Shown: one piece after another, positions 54,956 to 56,143 of the stretch
Numbering within the stretch: position 1 is the stretch's first letter
Layout: each line of letters begins with the position of its first letter
Origin: Catenuloplanes niger
Lineage (GTDB): Bacteria > Actinomycetota > Actinomycetes > Mycobacteriales > Micromonosporaceae
Assembly: GCF_031458255.1 (NCBI RefSeq)
Contig: NZ_JAVDYC010000001.1
Span: 2,117,001 to 2,181,000, forward strand
Length of the DNA stretch: 64,000 bases
Reading direction: 5' to 3'
Translations under genes and position numbers: made by a program
The notes under the pieces: model-generated
What the model was told of the DNA's origin: nothing
The model's input: only the letters and a program-made list of their open reading frames with translations
Databases searched by the model: none

Positions 54956-56143
54956 TTAATCCAGCAGCTCAGTCACGGTGCCCGCGGCCACCGTCCGGTT
55001 GCCCTCGCGCACCGCGAAGCCCAGGCCGACCGCCATCGCGACCGGCCGGTCCAGCACCACACCGAGCGACACCGTGTCACCCGGCATGACCATCTGCGCG
55101 TCGCCGAGGTCCATCGCCCCGGCCACGTCCGCGGTCCGGAAGTAGAACTGCGGGCGGTAGTTGGCCAGGAACGGCGTGTGCCGCCCGCCCTCGGCCGCGG
55201 TCAGCGCGTACAGCTCGGCCCGGAATCGCCGGTGCGCCCGCACCGAGCCGGGCACTGCCACCACCTGGCCGCGCGCGACCTGGTCCCGCTTGACGCCGCG
55301 CAGCAGCACGGCCGCGTTGTCCCCGGCCTCGGCCGCGAGCAGGCTCTTGCCGAACGTCTCCATGCCGGTCGCGACCGTCTGGATCGACTCGCCGAGCCCG
55401 ACCACCTCGACCGGCTCGCCGAGGCGCAGCGTGCCGCGCTCGACCGCGCCGGTGACCACCGTGCCGCGCCCGGAGATGGTGAGCACGTTCTCGATCGGCA
55501 TCAGGAACGGCTCCGCCAGGTCCCGTGGCGGCTCCGGCACGTAGCCGTCGACCGCGTCGAGCAGGTCCACGATCGACTGCGTCCAGCGCGGGTCGCCCTC
55601 CAGCGCCCGCAGCGCGGAGACCCGGACCACCGGCACCTCGTCGCCCGGGAAGCCGTACTCGGACAGCAGCTCCCGCACCTCCAGCTCGACCAGGTCCAGC
55701 AACTCCGCGTCCTCGACCGCGTCCGCCTTGTTCATGGCCACCACCAGGTGCGGCACGCCGACCCGGCGGGCCAGCAGCACGTGCTCGCGCGTCTGCGGCA
55801 TCGACCCGTCCTGCGCGGACACCACCAGGATCGCGCCGTCCACCTGCGCCGCCCCCGTGATCATGTTCTTCACGTAGTCGGCGTGGCCCGGCATGTCCAC
55901 GTGCGCGTAGTGCCGCGTGGCCGTCTCGTACTCCACGTGCGCGATGTTGATGGTGATCCCCCGCTGCACCTCCTCCGGCGCCCGGTCGATCCCGTCGAAC
56001 GACACGTAGCTGTTGACCTGCGGGTACCGCTCGGCCAGCACCTTCGTGATCGCCGCGGTCAGCGTGGTCTTCCCGTGGTCGACGTGACCCATCGTCCCGA
56101 TGTTGAGGTGCGGCTTCGTCCGCACGAACTGGCTCTTCGCCAT
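54956..56143 (-). CDS. tuf: Divergent elongation factor Tu paralogue, resistance-type residues
   Basis: 395 residues, full-length EF-Tu: P-loop GHVDHGKTT, effector [14 protein letters not shown]3 [13 protein letters not shown] (usual Cys81 is Met), G4 MNKAD, G5 VSAL, then domains II and III. It carries aminoacyl-tRNA to the ribosome. It stands alone, with no rpsL-rpsG-fusA neighbours, so it is probably a second tuf. By alignment with E. coli numbering it has Arg127 at Q124 (LLARRVGVP), Ala233 at R230 (VTGAVERG) and Ala278 at G275 ([10 protein letters not shown]), positions whose mutation gives kirromycin, pulvomycin and GE2270A resistance. GGAAAGG precedes the ATG. Confidence 0.95.

Follow-up and report, generated by a model that had tools for sequence, protein, structure and literature searches.

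The gene at positions 54,956 to 56,143 of the window, a 64,000-nucleotide stretch of the Catenuloplanes niger genome, is by sequence criteria a gene for EF-Tu3, a second EF-Tu of ancient origin in actinobacteria; the protein family is known, and the present protein is a new member of it. The new part of the finding is the leader of the gene, a conserved and seemingly undescribed RNA switch made of a short upstream open reading frame (uORF) and two helices, P1 and P2. The reading that we favour, and hold to be probable, is that EF-Tu3 serves as a stand-by, drug-tolerant EF-Tu under a translation-responsive attenuator, which would raise its level when elongation slows. The features on which this reading rests are as follows.

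54914..54948, minus strand: terminator-like hairpin behind tuf3, 13-bp arms followed by TCCGTTTT, read from the sequence
54956..56143, minus strand: tuf3-type EF-Tu paralogue (EF-Tu3), 395 amino acids, with M17, M81, R124, N216, L218, A230, T260, G262, A275 and G373
56146..56153, minus strand: Shine-Dalgarno-like GGGAAAGG of tuf3, read from the sequence
56252..56259, minus strand: P2 3' arm CGGTTCTG, with one G-U pair in the window's species
56322..56331, minus strand: P1 3' arm GGAGAAGGGT
56334..56341, minus strand: P2 5' arm CAGGACCG, within the P1 loop
56350..56359, minus strand: P1 5' arm ACCCTTCTCC, beginning on the A of the uORF stop
56359..56445, minus strand: uORF (MFGMNGLEVRTGGGRSCALAAMPRRLDS; 28 codons, stop TGA with C after it), positioned as a leaderless ORF
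56453..56458, minus strand: -10-like TAATGT, lying 7 nt before the ATG of the uORF

The tuf3 ORF is complete and occupies exactly 54956-56143 of the minus strand, with its ATG at 56143. All three EF-Tu domains are detected by Pfam, and the protein passes the NCBIfam EF-Tu equivalog model with 607 bits as compared to a cut-off of 522. The genes on either side encode a chitinase (GH18 and CBM2) and a DAHP synthase of class II. The genome of the window (G000; one contig, 9.74 Mb, 99.97% complete) contains another tuf, which adjoins the EF-G gene and whose product is 65% identical to the window protein; tuf3 is the divergent second tuf, located outside the str operon and present beside the ordinary one; the first-pass annotation had called it a stand-alone EF-Tu paralogue lacking the str-operon context. 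Both copies occur in 5/5 genomes of the genus, G000 included. A strong terminator-like hairpin stands behind the chitinase gene (window 56488-56534, minus strand), and its end is the start of the tuf3 promoter; the AT-rich tract before the tuf3 promoter follows or overlaps the chitinase hairpin in four of five genus members.

Residues are numbered as in E. coli EF-Tu, read through an aligned Serratia EF-Tu (L077), and on this numbering R124, A230, A275, M81 and G373 had all been read correctly in the first-pass annotation. Positions 124, 230 and 275 are taken by us to be resistance sites in E. coli, and 124 and 160 to be kirromycin sites. In 81 other EF-Tus, Q124, R230 and G275 are found in all 81 and residue 81 is Cys in 79 and Ala in two; M81, R124, A230 and A275 each occur in none of them and are not the residues of ordinary tuf genes. 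Of 187 near-invariant columns, each at least 95% conserved among these 81 proteins, 20 are altered in the window protein and none in the organism's other EF-Tu, so that the divergence is not due to chance. Twelve of the 187 columns (17, 81, 98, 216, 218, 230, 244, 260, 262, 275, 338 and 348) are altered in at least 90% of tuf3 proteins, and six of the twelve fall within the segments 215-230, 256-264 and 273-277 (hypergeometric p 8e-4), which are presumably GE2270A contacts.

The group of 46 tuf3 rows was defined by M81 and A275, and the counts for those two residues are true by construction there; in the 45 tuf3 rows picked by similarity, M81, G262 and A275 are present in all 45. Residue 230 is changed in every one of the 46 rows (A 37, K 6, V 3), while residue 124 is R in 35, H in 2 and Q in 9. 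Eight rows carry H160, six of them with Q124 and two (L130 and L134) with H124, so that 124 or 160 is altered in 43/46 rows, and neither is changed in L127, L128 and L131. The same residues were scored in a second set of 30 tuf3 proteins, which was assembled without regard to residue from leader-model hits or genome stretches, all in genomes outside the alignment. M81, A230 and G262 are present in 30/30 and A275 in 29/30 (one G275); residue 124 is Q in 20, R in 8 and H in 2, and residue 160 is H in 20, Y in 6, N in 2 and Q in 2. Since the changes at 81, 230 and 275 are kept across these further members, they mark the whole clade, whereas R124 belongs to only a part of it, which in the tree comprises the window's family, family f29 and Actinophytocola. 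The changes at 81, 230 and 275 are inherited with the clade and hence did not arise in G000. As a side observation, the ordinary EF-Tus of L020, L024 and L038 (Kocuria, Pseudonocardia and Thermocatellispora) carry Gln160, Tyr160 being found in 78/81 non-tuf3 EF-Tus.

A maximum-likelihood tree was built from 82 rows (46 tuf3, 11 actinobacterial tuf1-type and 25 other EF-Tus), and in it a branch with 100/100 support separates the 46 tuf3 rows from the rest. The clade includes genes of Streptomyces, Nocardia, Pseudonocardiaceae, Actinophytocola and Actinoplanes, the Actinoplanes row grouping among rows of the window's family, which on this ground is probably Micromonosporaceae. The Streptomyces tuf3-type genes L021 and L034 belong to the same clade as the window gene; they keep Q124 and carry H160, whereas the rows of the window's family have R124. 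With the Streptomyces EF-Tu3 type (described for S. coelicolor SCO1321 and S. ramocissimus, and compared here through L021 and L034) the window gene shares its position outside the str operon as well as A275, A230 and M81. Among 200 sampled genomes of the window's family, 89 contain tuf3 at 78% identity or more; two other genomes of the family (G057 and G076) have it at about 69-70%, and it also occurs in Streptomyces-like and other families.

According to the excerpted text of PMC12309360, tuf3 of S. coelicolor is expressed only under stress, and its product is a less active but GE2270A-resistant EF-Tu; of three overexpression constructs, two conferred no appreciable resistance, and with the thiostrepton-induced one resistance rose at least fourfold. 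The same excerpt allows a comparison by description with the EF-Tu of Planobispora rosea, which is GE2270A-tolerant like EF-Tu3 but comes from a producer, whereas S. coelicolor has tuf3 besides. In other excerpted sources EF-Tu3 of the non-producer S. coelicolor is described as kirromycin-resistant, S. ramocissimus expresses a kirromycin-sensitive EF-Tu during kirromycin production, and a cited title on Streptomyces EF-Tu3 announces resistance to three classes of EF-Tu inhibitors. These excerpts also present tuf3 (SCO1321) as activated by WblC, with WblC bound at the tuf3 promoter as a direct target. Drug resistance of EF-Tu3 is thus published for Streptomyces, and its extension to the window protein is well supported by orthology to those resistant proteins; this part of the first-pass annotation stands, while the self-resistance joined to it finds no support. 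The third inhibitor class for Streptomyces EF-Tu3 is presumably pulvomycin. A domain-2 and aminoacyl-tRNA face rebuilt in this manner would be poorly bound by EF-Tu-directed antibiotics, and EF-Tu3 could then serve as a stand-by elongation factor.

The same residues can be read differently, though this appears unlikely: the main task of EF-Tu3 would lie in starvation or stress, with an affinity for aminoacyl-tRNA that has changed, and the resistance would be a by-product. It is in domain 2 that the clade-wide changes concentrate, and D216N, F218L and R262G presumably lie about the face that contacts the amino acid and the tRNA. GE2270 and aminoacyl-tRNA compete for the aminoacyl-tRNA site on EF-Tu, as stated in an excerpted review, so the same EF-Tu3 changes could alter tRNA binding too; the title of van Wezel 1995 also names positive stringent control. 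Taken alone, however, such a role leaves unexplained both the changes at the kirromycin sites 124 or 160 (43/46 rows) and the WblC control reported in the excerpted literature.

The element conserved between the promoter and tuf3 begins with the uORF, which starts with ATG TTC or a close variant and ranges from 23 to 60 codons across the leaders. A TAnnnT-like box precedes it with its last T 8 nt before the ATG, and from this spacing the transcript probably begins at the ATG itself. In 45/45 scored leaders the uORF stop is TGA followed by C. When the 45 leaders were searched for ATGTT[C/T/G] without regard to frame, the nearest occurrence before the P1-linked TGA was in frame in 44/44 loci having the motif (L124 being without it), at 14 distinct lengths; of all occurrences within 200 nt, 45 are in frame and one is out. 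Over the uORF span, one of the two remaining frames is open in 29/45 leaders and the other in 25/45. Twenty held-out loci, which were not in the model and come from two families that are both also in the training set, gave the motif in 16/20 and in frame in 16/16, with lengths up to 60 codons. This conservation of frame strongly implies that the uORF is translated.

Within the genus the encoded peptide is not conserved, as evident from 4 synonymous versus 52 nonsynonymous codon differences, summed over pairs. Peptide-specific stalling was considered as a mechanism, and this weak amino-acid conservation speaks against it within the genus. MFR[YH]AF starts and GARS ends recur in most of the Streptomyces-like uORFs of the held-out set. 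Overall, the uORFs are composed of 23.7% Ala and 11.2% Gly. The codon CGA is found among the last five uORF codons in 37/45 leaders (window: 56362-56376) and constitutes 41/103 of the Arg codons in uORFs, as compared to 1/29 in the window tuf3 and 0/35 in the neighbouring DAHP synthase gene; it is a matter of speculation that CGA near the uORF end may slow the ribosome near the stop.

P1 is a 10-bp stem that opens on the last base of the uORF TGA. Its cells are paired to 98.7% (32 distinct sequences), five of the ten pairs are changed on both sides, and double-change cells number 27 as compared to 1-5 in slid controls. The P1 loop is AGRACC-like and has an exact 7-nt complement downstream in 31/37 leaders, against a background of 67/4995 7-mers, about 1.3% per 7-mer, with four windows tried per leader. 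The six leaders that need a G-U pair for P2 are five of the window's genus and L132. The letters of P2 vary by clade yet match (CAGAACC, CGGGACC, GAGAACC, GAGCCCC, GGACCCC, GGGAACC and GGACCTC). Among the held-out loci an exact match is found in 20/20, counting any loop 7-mer (background 21/2700 per 7-mer), and the core letters GGACCCC or GAGCCCC in 18/20. As compared to shuffled downstream sequence the excess of P2 is modest (mean z 1.8, 65% above 1, 37 leaders). In four leaders (L101, L103, L107 and L115) the P1 loop is enlarged and a P2 of the usual letters is missing, in L105 P1 is weak and P2 absent, and L126, inspected by eye, keeps P1/P2-like arms with an in-frame stop 12 nt further on. 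Judged on aligned sequences, both P1 and P2 covary. As they interleave, they must either exclude each other or form a pseudoknot. Stop-codon read-through by way of a P1/P2 pseudoknot was set aside, P1 beginning on the stop without a spacer.

The specificity of the leader for tuf3 was followed with a model (R1) of the uORF end and P1, built on 37 of the 46 leaders; L105 and L106 were left out for their score, L101, L103, L107 and L115 for their loop size, and L124, L126 and L129 by the uORF filters. L124 and L129 were added back for the uORF composition, frame and promoter counts, giving 45/46 leaders. In G000 the model has one significant match, at tuf3. A second one (E 0.29, L149) lies inside an ORF whose translation, by our own reading, resembles a cation-efflux transporter, and it was judged to be chance. 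Across the 200 family genomes, 81 have a match at E 0.01 or better, and these include 77 of the 89 genomes with tuf3 at 78% or more. The other four are G057 and G076, whose tuf3 is at 69-70%, G009, where tuf3 is cut by a contig end, and G058, with a relic. Of the 12 R1-negative tuf3 genomes ten were searched again as loci. Seven of these gave a weak match just upstream of tuf3, with E values of 0.0003-0.004 (G102, G091, G059, G111, G045 and G042) and 0.06 (G022); G020 gave a match at 0.26, and the tuf3 loci of G034 and G078 gave no R1 match. In the class, 46/394 genomes have a match, G000 included. The 39 leader loci returned, a part of the matches from the class and family searches (29 class and 10 family, the window's excluded), all have tuf3 directly downstream.

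Two apparent relics were observed in the course of these searches. In G058 (L160:480-1140) the tuf3 leader is joined to the 3' part of tuf3, with no intact tuf3; in contig 50 of G129 (L162:420-830) the leader is followed by the first tuf3 codons, and this genome has two further tuf3 matches. A search of 13 loci against Rfam release 15 at relaxed thresholds gave no family at the leader. On an Actinoplanes contig (L019:5567-5698) a match to the ALIL pseudoknot was noted just below the Rfam gathering score, which we take to be probably an IS3-type element.

A G[G/A]AA box is located 35-50 nt upstream of the uORF in 37/45 leaders, as compared to 65/2655 control windows, and the strict published GAAAWY in 8/45 as compared to 2/2655. 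One leader, L102, is counted as having no promoter box because it was scored from an earlier in-frame ATG, as it also was in the composition and all-occurrence frame counts. In 5/5 leaders of the window's genus the WblC box is absent and there is only an AT-rich tract; a WhiB7-like gene with RGRPRK is present in G000. WblC control is therefore likely for most leaders and unsure for the window's genus.

These elements suggest the following sequence of events. The tuf3 mRNA would open with the short uORF, and a ribosome that finishes it and sits on the stop would cover the 5' arm of P1; the geometry is evident from the overlap of stop and stem, and the occupancy is what we infer from it. With this arm covered, the P1 loop would be free and P2 could pair downstream, which is predicted to lower tuf3 expression by premature termination or by blocking of the start site. 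When elongation is slow, as with EF-Tu poisoned, the A site blocked or aminoacyl-tRNA scarce, the ribosome would lag behind, P1 would form first and exclude P2, and EF-Tu3 would be made. This direction of the switch was chosen because it fits the expression of tuf3 under stress and because the uORF of wblC itself, which an excerpted review describes as translated and placed before alternative RNA structures, works that way.

Folding was carried out for five leaders (L121, L036, the window's, L013 and L127) in three states, namely the free leader, the leader with a masked stop, and the leader carrying a ribosome at codon 5. L121 folds into P1 in the free state and into P2 once the stop is masked, and a pyrimidine-rich tract follows its P2; L036 has P2 whichever of the three states is imposed; in the window's leader, L013 and L127, P1 is formed in the free state but masking of the stop does not yield P2. 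The proposed change between the free and masked-stop states is thus reproduced in one of five leaders (L121), and in L121 and L036 P2 also forms with the ribosome placed at codon 5, so that folding energy does not give the switch. Leaders inspected by eye showed no consistent U-run behind P2.

The switch might also work with the opposite sign, P1 being the blocking structure that a ribosome at the uORF stop opens, with tuf3 rising when translation is healthy. The strong conservation of P1, which a ribosome on the stop must melt, agrees with such a sign; the conservation of the P1 loop as the complement of a downstream arm argues against it, and so does its prediction of repression under translation stress, contrary to the stress expression and WblC activation reported in the excerpted literature. 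We consider this sign decidedly unlikely.

The attenuator proposed for tuf3 resembles the wblC/whiB7 leader, as characterized in the excerpted review, in the combination of a translated uORF with alternative RNA structures upstream of an actinobacterial translation-stress gene. It differs, in a comparison made at the level of description, in that it controls an EF-Tu gene and in that P1 stands on the last base of the stop with the competing arm in its loop. The amino-acid and tRNA-synthetase leader-peptide attenuators of S. lividans (PMC8079986) also consist of short, often leaderless ORFs followed by hairpins, but the tuf3 uORFs lack their enrichment in codons of one rare amino acid; the excerpted text of that paper gives eight such leaders, an alanine leader included, and tuf3 is not among them.

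Self-resistance of a producer, in which the organism makes an elfamycin or thiopeptide and EF-Tu3 protects it, had been proposed from changes at three resistance positions, and is highly improbable: a search of the 99.97% complete G000 for YcaO and Lant_dehydr_C gave no YcaO gene, so that no azole thiopeptide cluster is expected; the neighbours are a chitinase and a DAHP synthase; the tuf3 clade, present in 89/200 family genomes and in other families, is too widespread; and a resistant EF-Tu3 is described, in the excerpted literature, for the non-producer S. coelicolor. The same genome has four Lant_dehydr_C matches, paired at two loci (C1:1243993-1246474 and C1:3337704-3340569), which are perhaps lanthipeptide-type or related clusters.

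A more specific proposal, which we put forward tentatively as having nearly an even chance, is that the tuf3 leader constitutes a dedicated RNA sensor of elongation, its uORF tuned to the general speed of translation rather than to one amino acid, so that a failing EF-Tu would call up its drug-tolerant replacement. If true, an EF-Tu gene would be under conserved feedback from the working of EF-Tu itself, and the leader would represent an RNA family, as yet unlisted, that spans several actinobacterial families. No description of the tuf3 leader was found in the open-licence literature, and an earlier one is possible. The leader may also bear on the difficulty, reported in PMC12309360, of exploiting tuf3 for resistance in S. 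coelicolor. By coupling EF-Tu3 to the state of translation, the leader would give the protein a testable role, that of a stand-by EF-Tu for times when its main counterpart is blocked or starved, and would let soil actinobacteria tolerate EF-Tu-directed antibiotics without a producer cluster.
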